A stretch of DNA of 64,000 bases, taken from Anthostomella pinea (Eukaryota; Ascomycota; Sordariomycetes; Xylariales; Xylariaceae). The stretch is from the NCBI GenBank assembly GCA_963556695.1, contig CAUWAG010000012.1, forward strand, positions 1 to 64,000, in the 5' to 3' direction. Positions within the stretch are counted from its first letter, which is position 1, and each line of letters starts with the position of its first letter. Both the position numbers and the translations under genes were made by a program. Under the pieces are notes generated by a model that was not told the DNA's origin, did no database searches, and saw only the letters and a list, made by a program, of their open reading frames with translations. This document shows, in pieces, positions 1-20,000 of this stretch.

Positions 1-240
1 AACCCTAACCCTAACCCTAACCCTAACCCTAACCCTAACCCTAACCCTAACCCTAACCCTAACCCTAACCCTAACCCTAACCCTAACCCTAACCCTAACC
101 CTAACCCTAACCCTAACCCTAACCCTAACCCTAACCCTAACCCTAACCCTAACCCTAACCCTAACCCTAACCCTAACCCTAACCCTAACCCTAACCCTAA
201 CCCTAACCCTAACCCTAACCCTAACCCTAACCCTAACCCT
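1..240. repeat. Telomere, (CCCTAA)40
   Basis: Forty perfect copies of AACCCT fill the first 240 bases with no variant unit, so this is a chromosome end with the C-rich strand running 5' to 3' inward. TTAGGG on the other strand is the usual telomere unit of filamentous fungi. The array stops abruptly at 240/241 and the next base belongs to a retroelement reading frame. Read in frame 1 the array encodes Asn-Pro repeats without a stop, in the same frame as the adjoining reverse transcriptase. Confidence 0.99.
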
Positions 241-1644
241 GACGTTCTTAATCCAAACTGGCAAGAGATCCAACAGTATCTTAACGAGAAGCAGTACCTT
301 GTAAAGATCACTGACAAAAATCTAGGACTGAGCGTCATATCTATAGACTGGTATAGAGAACAAGTGCAGAATCACCTGAATAACAGTGTTGCTTATGAGC
401 TTCATCCTGTGGACTTTAGGATTCTAAATCTAGAACTAGAAGACATCTATAACCTCACAAACCTACCATTACAAATACGAGAGTATCTGCAGGGTAGTTT
501 CAGGGTGGTACCCCGGCTTCATGTGATTCCCAAGATTCACAAGCAGCCGTGGAATTCACGCCCCATCATCCCCAGCCACAGCTGGATCACCTCAAGGGTG
601 GCAAAGGTTATAGATTGGGCACTTCAACCCCTTCTCTCCAACTATCCCTCTGTGCTTACCAGCACAAAGGATCTGATCACGGGCATCAGGAATATAGAAG
701 GGCCTCTGGACAATCTTTGGCTGGTATCAGGCGATGTAAGCGCCATGTATACTAATATACCAAAGGAGGACGCGATGCAAGCAATTGACAACATCCTTCC
801 TCCGGTCCAGAGAAGACTGAAGAAATGGTGGATAAGAAAGATGATGGAATACGTCTTGTCCAACAACTTCTTCGAGTACCAAGGAGCTACATACAAGCAG
901 AGATCAGGACTGGCAATGGGAGTGGCCTGCGCCCCCATCATTGCCAACCTGTTCTGTGCTATATATGAAAAAGGCCAATTTAAATATCGCAATAAGCATG
1001 TCAAGTACTACGGTCGCTACATTGATGATATCTTCATGGTCTTCCAAGGTACAGAAACCGAAGTGAAATCCTTTATCCAAGGGTGGAAGTTCCCAAACCT
1101 CACGGTACACTGGGAGTACTCTCGCACCTTGGTCTCTTTTCTTGATGTAGAAATAATTGTTCATGACAGAATAATAGTTACAAAATTATTCGAGAAAGCT
1201 TTAAATAAGCATCAATATATTCCCTTCTCATCAGCTCATCCGTTAACCGTCAAACGGGGCTTTGTTAAAGCCGAGCGCATGAGATATCGTATTATCTGTA
1301 GTCGGGATACCGACCGCCTACATGCAGAAGACAGATTATACTACAACCTCTTACGGCGTGGATACCCAGTGAGAGAATTGGATCAGTGGTTCAGCGAAAG
1401 TCTTGAGGATAAAACCGAAAGGACAGAGCCCAAATTTATTCTACCATCAGAATATAATCCAATATGGGAATATATCCGTATAGGGCCCGTCAAGGAAATA
1501 TTGCTACGATATTCCCGAGGTGAACTTCCAGGTATCAATGACCTGGTCACCTCGCTGAAACGGGATAGGAATATGTATGATCATATAAACCTACATAATT
1601 TAACACTGTTAGAAGTGCTAGAAACCTCAGAGAATAATACCTAG
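241..1644 (+). CDS. Penelope-like reverse transcriptase, 5'-partial, no GIY-YIG
   Basis: The frame is open from the telomere junction at 241 to the TAG at 1642-1644 (467 codons before the stop). The first usable GTG is at 364, so the natural start has been lost. Penelope-type landmarks are an N-terminal DKNLG with downstream WY (about 316-354), RLHVIPKIHK (about 508-543), catalytic motif A SGDVSAMYTNIP (about 727-762), GLAMGVACAPIIANLF (about 907-954) and the catalytic YIDD at 1018-1029, followed by SFLDVEI. The C-terminus ends soon after the thumb and shows no GIY-YIG endonuclease. No internal stop or frameshift interrupts the frame, in contrast to the LINE and helicase relics further in, which suggests a young insertion. 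Whether it is expressed is unknown. Only the N-terminal part upstream of the RT core is missing. Confidence 0.9.
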   Translation, partial: DVLNPNWQEIQQYLNEKQYLVKITDKNLGLSVISIDWYREQVQNHLNNSVAYELHPVDFRILNLELEDIYNLTNLPLQIREYLQGSFRVVPRLHVIPKIHKQPWNSRPIIPSHSWITSRVAKVIDWALQPLLSNYPSVLTSTKDLITGIRNIEGPLDNLWLVSGDVSAMYTNIPKEDAMQAIDNILPPVQRRLKKWWIRKMMEYVLSNNFFEYQGATYKQRSGLAMGVACAPIIANLFCAIYEKGQFKYRNKHVKYYGRYIDDIFMVFQGTETEVKSFIQGWKFPNLTVHWEYSRTLVSFLDVEIIVHDRIIVTKLFEKALNKHQYIPFSSAHPLTVKRGFVKAERMRYRIICSRDTDRLHAEDRLYYNLLRRGYPVRELDQWFSESLEDKTERTEPKFILPSEYNPIWEYIRIGPVKEILLRYSRGELPGINDLVTSLKRDRNMYDHINLHNLTLLEVLETSENNT

Positions 1645-1656
1645 GTGAGCCATGAA

Positions 1657-1709
1657 CTCCCCGCTTGCGGGAGGGCGTCAGCAGCCTAGGTGAAAACTGG
1701 GTGTGCTGA
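1657..1709 (+). other. Candidate structured RNA just 3' of the PLE ORF
   Basis: Thirteen bases after the stop codon there are two successive hairpins. The first is 1657-1673, CTCCC...GGGAG with inner GC/GC closing a TT loop and one bulged C. The second is 1678-1709, outer stem TCAGCA/TGCTGA and inner stem CCTAG/CTGGG around a GTGAAAA loop. The motif CCTAGGTGA occurs at the stop codon (1640-1648) and again at 1685-1693. Penelope-like elements are known to carry hammerhead ribozymes, but I see no CUGANGA core here, so this is only a candidate fold. Confidence 0.4.
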
Positions 1710-1917
1710 GAATTAGAATATTCTTAGCGGTTTGTTCTGTTGTAACCATGGCGCCGCAATGCGCTATGGGAAATAGTACTCTCACCGTCTTTTCTCTGAG
1801 ACTATAGCATTATCTTGCAAGATTCCCTATATATATACACTTTGTTTATTGTTCTTCTACTTAAAGAAAAACAAGGGTGGTTTCACTGTTCAAATATTGG
1901 TTTAGAAAAAGGTTCAA

Positions 1918-1985
1918 ACCCTTTATCCTAACCCTATACTATCCCGACCCTAACCCTAGCCACCCTAACCCTATCCATAGGGTGT
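1918..1985 (+). repeat. Degenerate interstitial telomere repeats at PLE 3' end
   Basis: Several CCCTAA-like units, some exact and some altered (CCTAACCCTATAC, CCCGACCCTAACCCTAG, CACCCTAACCCTATCC), lie directly after the AT-rich PLE tail. They have the same orientation as the terminal telomere. They are best read as the old chromosome end onto which the element was attached. Confidence 0.85.
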
Positions 1986-4589: not shown

Positions 4590-4828
4590 TCTCCACTGTC
4601 TTCTAGGGGTTGTCCCATCGAAGGTTGCCCGGAACAATGCCCAAAGCAAAAGGTACCTTTCAGCTGTACTTTAGGTATATATGTCCTTTCGCACCATCCT
4701 TGCGGCAGCCCACACTTCCAGCAGCAGCTGTATTCTCTAAATTGGACCTTTTGCCGCCACGCTACGTACTCCTGTATCCGCATTGTGCTGCATTCCCTTG
4801 CCGTGTGCTTGTACCGCTTTTCCCTAGG

Positions 4829-5035
4829 TATCATTCCCAAATCGGTTCTACTAGAGCCGATTTGCGCACGGACCCGTACGTAGCGCAAGCGGGCGCGTGC
4901 ACGGTGACAGGGGGGGGGAAGAGCCGATTTGGAGACGAGGGGGGTAGAGCCGATTTGATTCCCGGGCAAAAATTCGGTCAGCGTTGACAGATATATAGAG
5001 AAGACGAGACGGCGAATCTGGCCATACTGTCTGTA
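4829..5035 (-). repeat. Subtelomeric repeat, copy B (inverted partner of 2451-2630)
   Basis: The reverse complement matches copy A over its length. It has an almost perfect palindrome at 4839-4863 (AAATCGGTTCTA / TAGAGCCGATTT, one mismatch) and two further GAGCCGATTT motifs near 4923-4953. TTAGGGTTAGG at 5073-5083 lies on the side corresponding to the telomere repeat beside copy A. Copy B keeps CG-rich versions of positions that read CA/TG in copy A, so it is the less mutated copy. Confidence 0.8.
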
Positions 5036-5419
5036 TGTCGCTGCGACCGTTGGAAGGGGGCTTCTTCTATCAGTTAGGGTTAGGAGGAAGTTTGGCTGGA
5101 AGGTGGGAAGCGGGCGGGATGCCAAGCGAGCGGGACCCGGGTTCGGTAAAGGGTCAGACAGCAGGTTAGGATTAGACACCACCTGTCATTATCGCAGAGC
5201 CCGATAGCCAAGCAGCTTGTCTCTATAACACCCACTCCTGCGAGGTTTTCCCCTTGTGGTTTCCCTCACCAGCAGATAACAAACACCTGCTTCATCCACC
5301 AATGCGACATATATCGAACGGCTACTGGAACGATGTGTCCACCTGAGGACTGAGGTCCACTGGTCATTTTGTCTCTGGACAGGAGGTTTTTCTGACGAAA
5401 TCGTGCTTGGGTATTGACT

Positions 5420-6024: not shown

Positions 6025-9000
6025 CTAACCCGCTGTTCCGACCGTCAAACGGCTTCCAATATCACGGAGGACATAGATCTGCCCGAACAGATCCGTCACG
6101 TTGTAAAACAGGCGCCAGATTTCCATCTGGGGAGACTTCCTCGCCCGCGCTTCCACCGAGCTCGCCTCTGCCGAGTGCCCCTCTAGTCGTCTAAATGCCT
6201 CCTCCAGACAACTGCGCTCGTACTGGGCGATCTCAAACAGTTGGTCCTTCTTAGCGGCAAGGTCGTCGCCACTATTGCTGCTCCCTCCACAGGCGCCGCT
6301 TTGGGCCTCAAACTCGGGGAAGTCGACCGAGTTCAAATTGCCCTCGTCACGATCGCGCACAGCTGAGCCGTGGTCGTTATACATGCGACACATGGCCGCC
6401 AGATGCTGGCACGCGGCGGCGGCGTAGTACTTCTCCGTGGGAGAGGAGAAGCAGTCTCGACCGTTCTCGATCCACGAGCCCAGCAGGCAGCTTACGAAGT
6501 TGAAGGTGTACGTGGCCGAGGTATGGTCCGCCGACGTCGTGCGCACCCAGCGGAAAAAGTGCTCCCTCATCACGCCGTTGCTGAACTGGTGCCGTTTCAG
6601 CAGCTCGTTGTCCTCATTCTGCGTGACGTGCGTCTGGAAGTAGATCCGCAGCTCGCATGTGACGTTCTTGCGGTCCCACGCGCTCGCCGAGAGCACCGCC
6701 GGGTGCTTTAAAGCGCGGGTGACGAACTTGCGCAAAGGTACCAGAACCTCCTGCCTTTTTGCCTCTTCAACGTTCGGTGGATCGCCAATGGGATCCTAAG
6801 CAAGTTGCGAACCGTCCGCCAAGCCAGTCACACCGTTCGTTGGAGTATCATTACAGCCAGTATGGTCCAGGTCATTGGCGCCGCGTGAGTTGCTGACAGA
6901 GTCGATCACGTGGTCGATGAGTTGGCGAAGTTCCGGAACCCGTCCGGCGTAGTTGACTCCGGCAACCGCCTCCATGAACTCGTCGACTTGATAATTCAGG
7001 AGAGCGGCCATCATGCCCTCAAATAAGAAGGCTGGTGGGGCGAAGGTGCGCGTGCGATTGCTACACGTTGGCCACGCCAGTGGGATGACGTCGAAGTACT
7101 TGTCTTCTTCCACGCCCTTCCGCGTGAAGACGCTCAGCCTCCGTTCTCGGACTATTGGTCGGAACAGGGTCCCTTCGACCATGGACGCCCGAATCTCCCA
7201 CTCGGGAGTTTTCGAGAAAAGGGGGGTCCCTCGCCAGAGTTTCGAAAGTCTGGGTATGATAGATGTATCTCCGCGCAGGCTTGATCCCACATGAAAAGCC
7301 GGTGGGATAGTCGAGGCCTTGAGGGCGGCGAGCCTGTAGGCCTCGGCCAGGAATGGGGAGGTGTAGCTGACCTTCTCAATCCAGAGGCACTGTGGACGTC
7401 TGCCCTCGGGAGACTGAATGAATACGACAGCTCGGCGAACGGCTGAACTGAGCTGCTCATCGAAATCCCGCCAAATATCCAGTCGCCGTGCTTCGCAGAG
7501 TACAAGGGTTCCGTAAGCTGTCTCTTCGACTGACTTGTTCAAAGAGTCATCCTCGCTTTGGTCCAGAAGTGTCCTGTAGCATGCTTGGTAGAGGCAGATA
7601 GTAATCCTAGAACGCAGGACCTCATCGGAGAAAGCAGAAAGTTCACCCTTCTCGATGAGATCCACAAGCTTCGTAAACCCCTGCACAAGCAGAAGCGTAG
7701 GGTATAGAGTGGAAAGGTTCTGGTGACATTCTCTTAGTGGCTGTCAAGTGCGTGAACGTGGGACAACTTACCCATTTATCCTGTATCTTCGAGACGGCAG
7801 ACCACCAAGTATCACAAAGGAAAGCCACAGCCTTGGTTATCTGGGGTAGACAGTGCTGTGGTGAATTCTGGCAAAGAAGTGCCACCAAGGCGTTGCAGTT
7901 TGCGCTGGAACTGGGGTTCCTCTCCTTTGGATAGGTCTTGAAGTAATCCTCTGCCTCGAACATGTTGATCATCTTCTCTGGGCGAGCATTTCTGCCGAGA
8001 AGTTTCAGACAAGTCAGGGTTTTCGCCGTATCGTCCACGTCGGCCATGAAAGAGGAGGCTGAGAGGGAGGTCAGGACATGGGCTTCTGAAGAAAAGACGG
8101 ATCTGTCGTACCAAAACCGATAGTACCTCCTTCATCTATAAGAGCCTGAGAAAGGGCTTCTACCATCTTATTCAAGCCTGGACACTGGAGATCCACGGGC
8201 GAGAATCCTGAGGCAAGCAAGGTAGACAGAGCCTAGAAGCAGAAGTCAGGTACCGGAATGGCCGAGTGACGGTGTCGAGAACTCACCCAACTGGATTCAA
8301 AATATGTAGAGGGGTGTTACGGTATTACATAATACCTCCACATATTTATGTACATATATACCCCTAGCTTCCCCTTTCTTTTCCGACATTGCCTCTTCTT
8401 CCTTAGATATCGTTGAATCTAGATATTTCAACCCATCAGCTCTGACCAGCGCAGCTGCAGGCCTGATTGTCACAAGGGGTAAGCACTGGGAACACCACCA
8501 CTAGCTTTACCGGCGGCATTTTCGACAACATCTTTGAGATACGGCTCGGCCTCGTCGTCCCAGCGGGATGCTTTCATTAAATATGCCGATGTTGATGATG
8601 GCGACCCCATCATGGATCCAAATGTTGTGTGGTGGGCAATCCTGTCAAAGTCTATCTTGTCCATGAATGCTTCAAGGGAGTGGAAAACAGTCGATCGCAT
8701 GTTGCCGTACAGATCATCGGGCCTGAAATGCGACAGTTTCTGTGCATTGATCTTCATCAACTGATGGAACCCATCAAATTGGAAATCGAGCGATGGGTCT
8801 TCCCTGACGAGAAGACCAATCAGGGCTGGGACAGTGACCTCGAAGCCAACCTGAACAGTGGACCCGACAGCCCACGATCGCAGCATGGAACGCAGAGAGC
8901 TAACGGCCCTCTCAATGCGGTCCCCGAGACCCATGGTGTCCACATGTTCAAGCTGTAGCGGTTGAGCTCGATGGCGTAGGAGGGACAGGAGCGCCGCAGC

Positions 9001-9309
9001 AGTGCTCAAGATGCCATCGACTTGCGATGCGGTTTCGCCCCAACTTCCTTCCTCCGACTGACTGTCTAGGAGATAGTCGAAGCACCTGGGAAGAAGCCAC
9101 TGGCACTTCCCGTCAATGACCTTGGTCACCAAAGAAACAAAGGCTGTGTCATAAATGGAACAGCTCATCGACCCGAACCTGAAAACTCCGTCGGTAGCAC
9201 CTACGCTACTCTGGAGCAGTGAACGCGCCGCGGCATCTAGCTCATCGGTCCGGAGTGTCGAAGGCCCATTGTCGTTGGTAGCATGGGATGAAGATACACG
9301 TCGCTCCAT
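6025..9309 (-). pseudogene. Bifunctional diterpene synthase (CPS/KS type), LTR-disrupted
   Basis: This encoded a fungal bifunctional terpene cyclase of the copalyl diphosphate/kaurene synthase type, which cyclises geranylgeranyl diphosphate in a class II step and then ionises the product in a class I step. Visible landmarks are SCSIYDTAFVSLV near the N-terminus, the class II acid motif DVDDTA (about 8025-8042), the class I motif DEFME (about 6975-6988) and an NSE-like NDxxSxxxDxxE (about 6340-6375). Introns with good borders are 8233-8286 and 7681-7771. A solo LTR sits in the coding sequence at 8315-8474; ignoring it and one target-site copy, the frame continues directly into the family's TYFE.SW segment. 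An in-frame TAG occurs at 6796-6798 (consistent with CAG to TAG). Near 8085-8125 the frame changes across a GT-AG interval of only 26 or 41 nt, which may be a deleted intron or an indel. Product (gibberellin-type or other) cannot be told. A start at 9357 is also possible. Confidence 0.88.
8315..8474 (+). mobile_element. Solo LTR, 160 bp, TSD AGGGG
   Basis: Begins TGTTACGG and ends TGTCACA. It is flanked by the 5-bp duplication AGGGG at 8310-8314 and 8475-8479. Copies of the same element occur at 59310-59469 (opposite strand) and 60069-60235, each with its own 5-bp duplication, so this is a bona fide LTR family and the internal region has been lost by recombination. Near its 5' end GGTATTA/TAATACC (8321-8336) forms a hairpin. 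It disrupts the diterpene synthase coding sequence. Confidence 0.93.
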
Positions 9310-10526
9310 AATGATGTGGTTTGAATACATAGCTTGGGTACCCAGATAGGAGACCAAAGAATGGCTTTGCGTAATTATACCTGTCGAAGCATAGCGACCG
9401 ACAAACCAAAGGCTCAGCAGGGCTTTATGAGCGGTGCGTTACAGGTATATCTCAACATCTAGTCTGCTTGCATTGCTCGAATTGGACATGGGCCTACTCG
9501 TCTTGCTCTGTCGGGTAAGTTAACCCCGAATGTAGAACACGGCAAGCTTGAATCGGATCAGCCCTGTACGAAGAGAGAATATCGTGGTTTGGCTGTGTGT
9601 GAGTTTTCCTAACATCCTCACGAGCGTTGTTCGCACTGGGTGTGATCGTGTTGATTCTGATGGTGTCGACCTTGATTGTGCCACTGGAAGTGCCGAGGCA
9701 GTGCATGCAATGTAAGCGATGACTACAGGCTAATCTATCGTGCGAGACACGCGTAGGTCACCCAATGACATCGCCAGAGGGGGGGGTTCCCTGCCTCCCG
9801 CCCCAAAGTACCTTGCATTACGGTCCGAAGCGAAGTGGCTACGGGATGAAAAATAACATGTTACACCGATGGACGACGACCCCGTATTCCGACGTAGTAG
9901 TGCATACATATGCAGTGGGCTAGGTGCTACACCCTATAAGTGTTAAGGGACAAGATGCCGCCGTTGCATTTTGGGTGCCGCCCGTGGTGCCAATCGAACA
10001 TTGTCGCATACGCAGTTGGCTGGGCCGCGTGGGGGCTATTGGGGGCTATTGGGCCACCCGTCACGTCGTCAAGGTCCAAGTTCACTCTTCCCTTTACTTG
10101 CTCCATCATGTCAACCGAAAAGACGGTTCTGCCGCGTAGGCTTCTGCCAGGCACAGGCATGAGCAATCTATCGAGTGCAACCCCTTTGGCGGTTGGGTAA
10201 CATGATGGCATGATGGTTAGGACCGTTAATACCCCCTTCTAAATGAAACGGGAATCATGCCGCCAATGAATCCTTCCGTGAATCCGTCTACCGCAGTCAG
10301 CCAATGTTACCCACCATTGGACCTCACCGCTTCGGGGGGAAGCTGCATGGCACATTCTTTGCTTATCCCGCAAGCTCTTCTCGGGACTTTCAAATGATGC
10401 CCCTCTTGATCCAAACGATTCTTTCCCCCTCACTGGCTTACGCTTCATCGTCGCCCTGCCGCCTACCTTGCTCTTGTTTTCGTTACTAGAAGCGTTGCCA
10501 ATTGTCCTCGGAGTCCTCCCCCATCA
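9310..10526. other. Intergenic, no supported gene
   Basis: Upstream region of the diterpene synthase relic and then about 900 bp with only short overlapping frames on both strands around 9.9-10.5 kb. A direct repeat of GGGGGCTATT occurs at about 10031-10050. No cluster partner such as a P450 or GGPP synthase is seen. Confidence 0.4.
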
Positions 10527-17029: not shown

Positions 17030-20000
17030 CAGCTGTGGGGAGCGATGGGGAGCAGTGGGGAGCAGTGTAGCTGCCAACGGCGGGGGCATGTAGTTGGACA
17101 GCCCCTAAGTTGCAATGCCACTTGATGTAGCACACCCACACTTGCCCTCCACCTCTTGTAGCCATCTGTGTAAATGCTGAATCTCCCGGTATTGCTTTTT
17201 GTGACGCTCTTTAAGCCGGTTTGCCGGCTCCCCTTCTCCTTCCTCCTCTCCTTCCTCCTCTCCTTCTTCCTCTCCTTCTTCCTCTCCTTCTTCCTCTCCT
17301 TCCTCCTCTCCTTCCTCCTCTCCTTCCTCCTCTCCTTCTTCTTCCCACTCCACCCCCTCCGCTTCTTTAATGCCCCTTTCTTTGAAACAACCTCTCTTAT
17401 CGCCCCCGTCCCAACCCCCCGTCTGCTTCTGGCAGCGGTCACACCACTCGCCACCCACCTCCTCACAGTCTTTTCCTACCCCGTCTATGAACACCCCCAG
17501 CGCCACCCGCCGCCGGCAGTCCGCCCCTTACACGAACCACGCCATCGCCTGCCGGTTGAGCTGCTCCACTTCATTGCCCTGCTCGTTGTGCCACCCCGCC
17601 CGTCTGTCACGGGTACGTACCTAGGTACGTACCGTGCCACCCTATGTGTATATAACCAGGTCTGGACCCCCAGCTACTTGTTTTCCTTCCTCTTCCTTCT
17701 TTAACAGCTACAATATACATTGGTCTACATATCAAGCTCTTCGGGTTCATCCCTTAGACCTTGTTCGTTACACCGTCCGTCCGTCACGATCACCGACTCT
17801 ACCACCTTGCCCGCCCGCCGCAAGCCTCGCCCCGTCTGCTGCGCAAAGTCCACCAATCCCTACTACGGCTGCTCTACATGTATCACCGCCACGAGCCCCT
17901 GAATATCTATCCCTATCCCGAGCCCCGTTGTCGCCACTACTTGTTGTATCTCTCTTTTTCCTTTTGTCCACTTTTTTAGCACTATTTTTTATGCCTTGTT
18001 GGCCATATTGTTGTGATAAAATGCACACCCTAGCTTTTCTGTTAGCGCCTCGTATTTATTTTTTGATCGGCAGTATACCACTCCTTTCTGCCCCGTATGC
18101 ATCACTTTCTCCATCCGCACGACCGTCTGGACCACCTCTTCCTCTACCATGCCCTTGCCCGCTTTGACCTCTGCCACCCCGTACCGGGTATTCCGCTTGA
18201 CCGTCGCCGCCCGTACCATCGCCGCGTCCTCCGCCACCATCGCTTGCCGGAACCACCGTTCCAGCCGCACTGGCAGCGTTGCCATTAGCAGTACTACCGG
18301 GCAGTCGAACCGGTACAGCCCTTATAGCCCCACTAGCTTAGCCCGGTACCCAGTGTCCATGATGATTATGTGGCACTTGTCTATAAAGATCCATCGTAAC
18401 AGATCCCGCGCCCGCAGCCCGTCCGCGTATGTTATGAACTCATTACTGCTGGCAATGTCCACGCTGACCACCACCAGCTGTGCCTCCCGCTAGGACTCGT
18501 CCCGCCCTGTCTGTGCCGCCGTCTGCCATCGCAGACTGTCCACCCTAAAGTCCCGTGCCCGCGCCGCCAGATCGTCCATCAGCGCTATAAACAGCACCAT
18601 TACTACCGTCGTTCCTGTCTTCTCTGTCACTGCTGGCAGCATGAAGAGAATGCTCTTCCTGCCACCTGTCGGCAGCACCACGATAAGTGCCTGTCTGCCC
18701 TTCGTTGCCATCACCTTTGTCATCGCTGCCTGCTGTTCCTCTGTCTTCCAGCAGGCATCGATTCCTAGTAACCTGCGCAGTCCGTTGTCTATCCCGGTCT
18801 CGCAGCTCTCCTTGTTGCTGCTGTTATCAGTGTTGTCCTTGCCACCGTCCTTCTCCGTAGCCCCCGGCTTAGATCTATCGTTGCCCACCTTCCTTTTCTT
18901 GCCGCCTCTGTTATTTCTGTCCTTGTCCCCGCCCCTGCCCCTGTCTGCTGCCTTGGCTTGTCTCTTCTTGTCCTTGCTGGCGCTCTTGTAATCATCGTCT
19001 TGACCCTGATCGCCGCCGCTGCCGCTCGGCTGCAAGTACCCGTGCCATAACCGGCTGATTTCCTGGTAGTTTGCTATCATCTGTGGCTGCAGCTGCCCTG
19101 GGAATCGTACGTCGAGCGCGTAATGCTGCCGTGCTATCGCGCTGCCGTGCGTCGCCTGCAGATCCTGTGACGGCCTGCACAGACCTTCCCACATGACAAG
19201 CGGATACTTCCCAATAGGGGAAGGATCTGACCAGAGGATCCCCTTAAAGGGGCAACCTCCCACTGTACCTATCTCTCTCTCTCTCTTCCTTTCCTCTCTA
19301 GTCTTGATATTCTCGTCAATAGAGTAATAGCTGCTTGCTGCCGGCCATGTCCCAGCTCCCCAGTATGCTCGCCGTGACAGATCCCAGATGGACTCTGTCT
19401 TCTGTTGCTCCCGCGTCTCGCCCGTCACCGGATCTTCACGTCCCGGTCCCCCGCCGCCTCTAATGTCATCCTGTTCGGCTGTCCCGATATCCACCTCAAG
19501 CTGCCGTATCACCAGACCCCGGATCTTCCGCCCCAGCTCAATCGTTACGTGTCGATAGTCTGCCACCGTTAGTTCCACCCCGATATGTTGCCCTGCCAGC
19601 GCCGCTAGCTGCTTGCTTAGCTCCGCCGTCTCCCATTGTCCCTTCTGTCCGTCCTTCTATAGCCACTCGTCCAGAGCGGCCGACAGCACTCGTCTGCCTA
19701 CTGCCCCGCCCGCCTGCGTGTACAGCATCTTCTCAAACGGCAGCACCCACGTTATGTACGCTATCAGCATCTTGCCCACATGTGCCGGCAGAAACCACGC
19801 CACCTTGTGCCCAATGCCCCGGATCGCCTTGTTCTTGTCCCGGTCTGTCACGAGCAGCATGTCCCCGTCAAACACAAACATGTTCTGTAGCAGCTGCTGC
19901 ATGTCGCAGTGCCGCATCATCATGATCTCCGGCCCGCACCCCGGTTGCCCTCCCCAGATGGGCATATACGCCAGAAACGCCCGCCTGAACTCCTGTGCCC

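Follow-up and report, generated by a model that had tools for sequence, protein, structure and literature searches.

The first 64 kb (positions 1-64,000, hereafter the window) of contig C9 (CAUWAG010000012.1) in the 53.7-Mb, 16-contig genome assembly of Anthostomella pinea begin with a telomere joined to a telomeric Penelope-like element, a retroelement that is endonuclease-less and well delimited. Seven copies of this element are present in the genome, all attached to chromosome ends, and in six of them the flank on the chromosome side is a repeat whose other copies run on outward past the junction (for two of these six the evidence is weaker). We consider it likely that the copies arose when an exposed chromosome end primed reverse transcription without an endonuclease and telomerase then capped the product, suggesting that Penelope-like elements and telomerase can patch damaged chromosome ends.

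The terminal telomere at the start of the contig (1-240; forward strand, as for all features below unless stated otherwise) consists of forty AACCCT units without a mismatch. Both this array and its junction with a reverse transcriptase (RT) frame at 240/241 had been called correctly in the original prediction, made from the sequence alone, which had also taken the openness of the frame across the junction as a sign of fusion. The frame is indeed open from 1 to 1644. However, this carries little weight: (CCCTAA)n has no stop codon in two of its three forward frames, and with a two-in-three chance of such openness we rejected the junction-crossing frame as evidence of fusion. The element itself spans 241-2449, is truncated at its 5' end and reads in the sense direction away from the telomere. 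It is collinear with C4:49-2293 at 96% identity, and six other copies share its 3' end. An end at 1985, as first proposed, falls short of this: in the alignment the C9 and C4 copies are collinear up to window position 2444 and unrelated thereafter, and five further copies end at the same base.

The RT frame (241-1644; 467 amino acids, with a stop codon) represents the C-terminal half of a longer protein. Between the frame and a telomere-like tract lie about 280 bases; another 350 or so separate the tract from a hammerhead ribozyme motif, beyond which comes a telomeric tail. The internal tract (1927-1973) is degenerate and contains three CCTAACCCTA words, with a chance expectation of 0.06 such words per window. 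All seven copies carry reverse-complement telomeric repeats at their 3' end. In the window this tail (2428-2449) comprises 17 nt (2428-2444) found in all seven copies, one base of which differs in the C14 copy, followed by CCCTA in the C9 copy. The 3' side had been thought to abut older telomere repeats. We rejected the repeats at 1927-1973 as an old telomere, since the tract lies inside the unit common to C9 and C4; the true 3' tail adjoins a cut subtelomeric repeat.

A search of the whole genome with the DNA of positions 241-2700 yielded 32 matches, comprising two copies with the RT, five with the 3' part only, two older fragments on C4, and 23 matches to the neighbouring repeat only (2448 onward). 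The two RT copies found in the genome, on C9 and C4, both lie at contig starts. Their proteins are 98% identical, which supports the recent insertion originally proposed. Each of the seven copies has a telomeric array on its outer side; all share orientation and 3' end, their 5' side facing the telomere and capped by telomeric repeats. All are 5'-truncated, with no full-length copy in the assembly: the 5' end lies at 241 in C9, seven bases further out in C4, at about 1963-1980 in four copies and at about 2227-2230 in C2. At each of the 32 contig ends we viewed at least the outermost 0.8 kb. Ten of these ends open with telomeric repeats, the array of C14 lies 1.2 kb inside, and two arrays stand head to head inside C2; in total at least 13 telomeric arrays were seen, and 7 sit on element copies.

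Three further observations were made in this survey. The two older fragments on C4 (C4:4704194-4705795) are diverged pieces of the 3' part (84% and 95%), split by about 1.35 kb and lying some 70 kb in from the end of the contig, with no telomere array nearby. The roughly 1.2 kb outside the C14 array (C14:5427402-5428629) looks AT-rich by eye and represents a later join or an assembly error. The head-to-head TTAGGG/CCCTAA arrays at C2:4266029-4266398, inside an 8.9-Mb contig, stem either from two chromosomes fused end to end or from a join made during scaffolding.

What lies behind the tail differs from copy to copy: 0-6 extra telomeric bases are followed by seven different flanks. In the window, the target is a subtelomeric repeat cut on its outer side (2449-2634), other genomic copies of which continue outward. 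This was the case at all 15 other loci compared for the C9 flank (two of them overlapping, and with the C5 start excluded), a comparison that left out loci aligning from further inside the repeat (L050). The C5-start copy joins this same repeat family at the repeat's own telomere-like motif. Only four or five of the many listed repeat copies were fetched and compared per flank. For C4, five of five fetched copies continue outward, four sharing 60 bases or more and one about seven; for C7, five of five do so. For C14 the number is four of five, with a common inward stretch of just 52 bases and one C14 locus (L105) that was not alignable at the junction. All five fetched for C2 continue outward, but their similarity extends over only some 10-20 bases. 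The C5-end flank is unique. Bases at the junction that match the tail number 1 in C9, 11 in C5, 1 in C4, 4 in C7, 0 in C14 and 1 in C2. Since other copies of these repeats continue outward, the element appears to have joined ends cut or eroded inside repeats; judged from sequence comparison, it is attached to broken or eroded chromosome ends and not to old telomeres. The repeat family of the C9 flank is dispersed and mostly subtelomeric, occurring in the window at 2449-2634 and 4823-5036 and at 17 further places; in the copies shown, a CCTAACCC-like motif lies about 45 bases further out than the 2449-2634 stretch.

The frame encodes a telomerase-like RT, as is characteristic of endonuclease-deficient, telomere-attached Penelope-like elements. 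Its RVT_1 domain exceeds the Pfam cut-off (E about 1e-8), and the TDKNLG motif conserved in relatives (310-327) is followed by the RT motifs GDVSAMY (730-750) and YIDD (1018-1029), whose Asp and Asp-Asp, respectively, we take to be the catalytic residues. The AlphaFold model of the frame (predicted local distance difference test score 87.5) has TERT as its best structural match. No GIY-YIG domain was matched by Pfam in the window frame or in the six of six relatives scanned, nor was one found behind the frame, where no part of 1645-2427 stays free of stops for more than 75 codons; this result covers the C-terminal half and the DNA downstream, the N-terminal half of the window element being missing from this copy. 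Together these findings uphold the original prediction of an endonuclease-less, telomerase-like RT of Penelope type at a telomere. Other searches were less specific. A single-sequence search of the PDB returned weak retron matches only, and a profile search gave weak matches led by group II RTs and including retron, other bacterial and telomerase RTs; NCBIfam matches to RTs were weak and far below cut-offs, and a scan of viral contigs contained no relative.

Just 5' of the telomeric tail, as in other telomere-attached Penelope-like elements, lies a predicted type I hammerhead ribozyme (2330-2379; predicted cleavage at 2374/2375), matched by the Rfam model RAGATH-1 with E=0.008, below the gathering score. 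A strict hammerhead descriptor matches once in the window and not at all in 40 random 64-kb sequences. Every one of the seven copies gives a RAGATH-1 match below the gathering score, and six of them keep the strict core. The minimum free energy fold of a 56-base stretch is the hammerhead, whereas that of a 141-base stretch around it is not, and this longer stretch folds no better than shuffles. No covariation was found across the copies because they are too alike. In the C2-start copy (L039:332-396) the core is changed from GAAA to AAAA, making it a natural candidate for an inactive ribozyme.

We propose the following sequence of events. First, as comparison with other copies of the repeats shows, a chromosome end was broken or eroded within a repeat. 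An element RNA, with the hammerhead fold and a short CCCTAA tail at its end, would then have met the exposed 3' end, where an RT supplied in trans by an unseen full-length source may have copied it, starting at the tail. We infer this copying from the invariant 3' end, the lack of an endonuclease and the little or no homology to the target. Early stops in synthesis could account for the variable 5' ends. Finally, telomerase would have added TTAGGG repeats, producing the observed order of telomere, element and broken repeat. A fixed 3' end, truncated 5' ends, the absence of an endonuclease and near-zero target homology all fit RNA-templated, end-primed synthesis. For endonuclease-deficient elements, deprotected telomeres or double-strand breaks are 'apparently' the sites of priming, and telomeric repeats are added onto their truncated 5' ends (PMC3846280). 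With six of seven targets cut or eroded inside repeats, priming at broken ends becomes directly testable in a telomerase-bearing ascomycete, since each flanking repeat can be set against its other genomic copies. This raises the question of whether such elements protect genomes or merely exploit accidents.

Telomeres that lack the element weigh against assigning it a special part in end healing. As a control we used six element-free telomeric arrays and searched the flanks of three (C3 start, C16 end and C16 start). At the C3 start (C3:1-902, L069) the telomere sits directly on the interior of a high-copy transposon; the flank is identical over 299 bases to four fetched transposon copies, and all four continue outward. 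This junction is apparently a very recent healed break, to judge by that identity. At the C16 end, similarity to a high-copy repeat sets in at the second base of the flank; at the C16 start, similarity to a few genomic places sets in at the fifth. Outward sequence was readable in neither case. On this comparison, telomeres joined to the inside of repeats are no peculiarity of the element. Moreover, since the C3-start telomere caps a transposon interior without it, telomerase by itself can apparently heal ends in this genome, and healing does not require the element. The genome indeed has a telomerase gene (PF12009 domain, C2:7148294-7148754). The idea that RT-based end extension runs alongside telomerase therefore holds in part: element copies underlie 7 of the 13 arrays seen, but none of these copies lacks a telomeric cap, a telomerase gene is present, and element-free telomeres occur, one of them capping a broken transposon.

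Caps consisting of telomere and element could instead have spread between ends by recombination or break-induced replication, without new reverse transcription. In keeping with this, the C5-end and C14-end copies share two derived changes in the 3' region, four caps begin in or near the same internal tract, and the C5-start junction has its 11 matching bases at a telomere-like motif. Yet five of the six testable junctions have just 0-4 matching bases while all seven copies start at the same tail, and the 5' ends vary among copies. Within the 3' region the copies are 96.7-99.6% identical, with low tree support, and their differences are mostly private. We thus regard such a spread as unlikely. 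That C4 and C9 represent one duplicated end was rejected, given that their flanks are unrelated, their junctions lie 7 bp apart and they have no derived change of the 3' region in common.

Four of the other copies have their 5' end within the 1927-1973 tract or a few bases from it. Under uniform truncation, four of seven 5' ends in a 70-base tract would have P of about 3e-5, or 6e-4 when the related C5-end and C14 copies are counted once, the tract in both cases having been chosen after seeing the data. Returning to end-primed reverse transcription, the element might, as a tentative extension that we hold to be doubtful, serve as a two-ended telomere adapter. Its 3' tail would prime at almost any exposed end and the internal tract, about 0.5 kb upstream, would give the complementary DNA a TTAGGG-like end for telomerase; short caps would then be a regular healing route, with newly capped ends left inside transposons.

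The same cluster of 5' ends bears on whether the unit is in fact composite: a short hammerhead element (about 1977-2444) on which a separate RT element, ending near 1916-1976, is nested, the tract at 1927-1973 then being a genuine old telomere. Five copies hold the 3' part alone; the starts of three of them (C7 start, C5 end and C14 end) lie only a few bases apart, immediately beyond the internal tract, which itself resembles a decayed telomere. However, the RT part always occurs with the 3' part (two of two), the two being collinear at two ends with different flanks. The hammerhead and tail, which are marks of rotifer telomeric Penelope-like elements, occur only in the 3' part, and no hammerhead was found in 1645-1916. 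A set of 36 metagenomic relatives (P0242-P0278 without P0270; 919-1016 amino acids) lies on contigs that vary very little in length (median 3.8 kb), which indirectly fits one unit that includes the 3' part. We give the nested arrangement little credence. The evenness of these contigs may arise because telomeric repeats on either side of the unit interrupt assembly.

It is very improbable that the RT fragment serves the host as a chromosome-end extension enzyme. The frame is open and its motifs are conserved in both RT copies, but, contrary to what was first thought, the RT is not intact. The TDKNLG motif begins at residue 24 of the window frame, compared with residue 481-511 in seven longer relatives measuring about 920-975 amino acids, indicating that about 460-490 N-terminal residues, or about half of the protein, are missing, and the first Met is residue 169. 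The fragment probably makes no working enzyme. Codon differences between the C9 and C4 RT copies do not demonstrate constraint either: 17 codons differ, 8 silently and 9 nonsynonymously, against an expected nonsynonymous fraction of 0.68 (P=0.15). The presence of a telomerase gene further argues against such a role. Finally, an assembly artefact at the contig end, for which the oddities inside C2 and outside the C14 telomere might speak, is hardly credible with two RT copies at differing junctions and five more copies of the same architecture at other ends.

Elsewhere in the window, six of nine other frames scanned had no Pfam match. A frame at 18493-19656 (reverse strand) shows weak similarity to DEAD helicases in Pfam (E=6e-4, short of the cut-off) and is probably the telomere-linked helicase named in the original prediction. 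Several adjoining frames at 6028-9438 (reverse strand) may resemble a diterpene synthase; Pfam gave no match in the four frames scanned. A conserved phosphatase gene has its best relative, 73% identical, in Biscogniauxia sp., and the nearest relatives among the matches listed are Xylariales. This bears out an ascomycete host for the element, one of the Xylariales and perhaps close to Biscogniauxia. Such a host is not itself new, since putative telomeric Penelope-like elements have been described in the ascomycete Mycosphaerella graminicola (PMC4522978); chromosome ends of Agaricus bisporus are also said to bear Penelope-like elements (PMC7473861).

In an unrooted tree of 66 RT proteins, the window RT groups with metagenome proteins (100% ultrafast bootstrap), and this group joins powdery-mildew proteins (Podosphaera, Blumeria) at 82%. 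A branch with 99% support parts these two from all named basidiomycete, mucoromycete and other ascomycete proteins. No relative is named Penelope among the names in the two RT match lists, and our assignment to Penelope-like elements was made without sequence comparison to named Athena, Coprina or Penelope members. Endonuclease-deficient fungal elements, which we take to be of the Coprina type, share a fungal host with the window element, their named basidiomycete and mucoromycete relatives being 27-35% identical to its RT. Cellular rvt genes of fungi are single-copy RT genes; we found no single, intact, immobile gene here, but two truncated telomeric RT copies and five 3' fragments. MoTeR1 of Pyricularia oryzae is a non-long terminal repeat element with another endonuclease. 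It resembles the window element as a fungal telomeric retrotransposon (PMC10088271).

Junctions on broken repeats in fungi were not reported in the titles and abstract openings searched, a search that left most subscription literature outside. The M. graminicola Penelope-like family 4 is likewise an ascomycete RT element with truncated copies and has 1-3 telomeric hexamers at its 3' end pointing away from the telomere; it has 34 full-length copies, in contrast to none in the present genome, and, compared by description, no hammerhead or broken-repeat junctions appear in the excerpted account (PMC4522978). Athena and the terminons of bdelloid rotifers likewise combine an RT without endonuclease, 5'-truncated copies capped by telomeres, and a 3' hammerhead followed by reverse-complement telomeric repeats (PMC3846280, PMC6431247). 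Compared with these, the window element is compact and of low copy number, with no accessory genes seen in its truncated copies, and carries CCCTAA where rotifers have their own repeats. By description, it is set apart by its internal telomere-like start tract and by its junctions on broken repeats.
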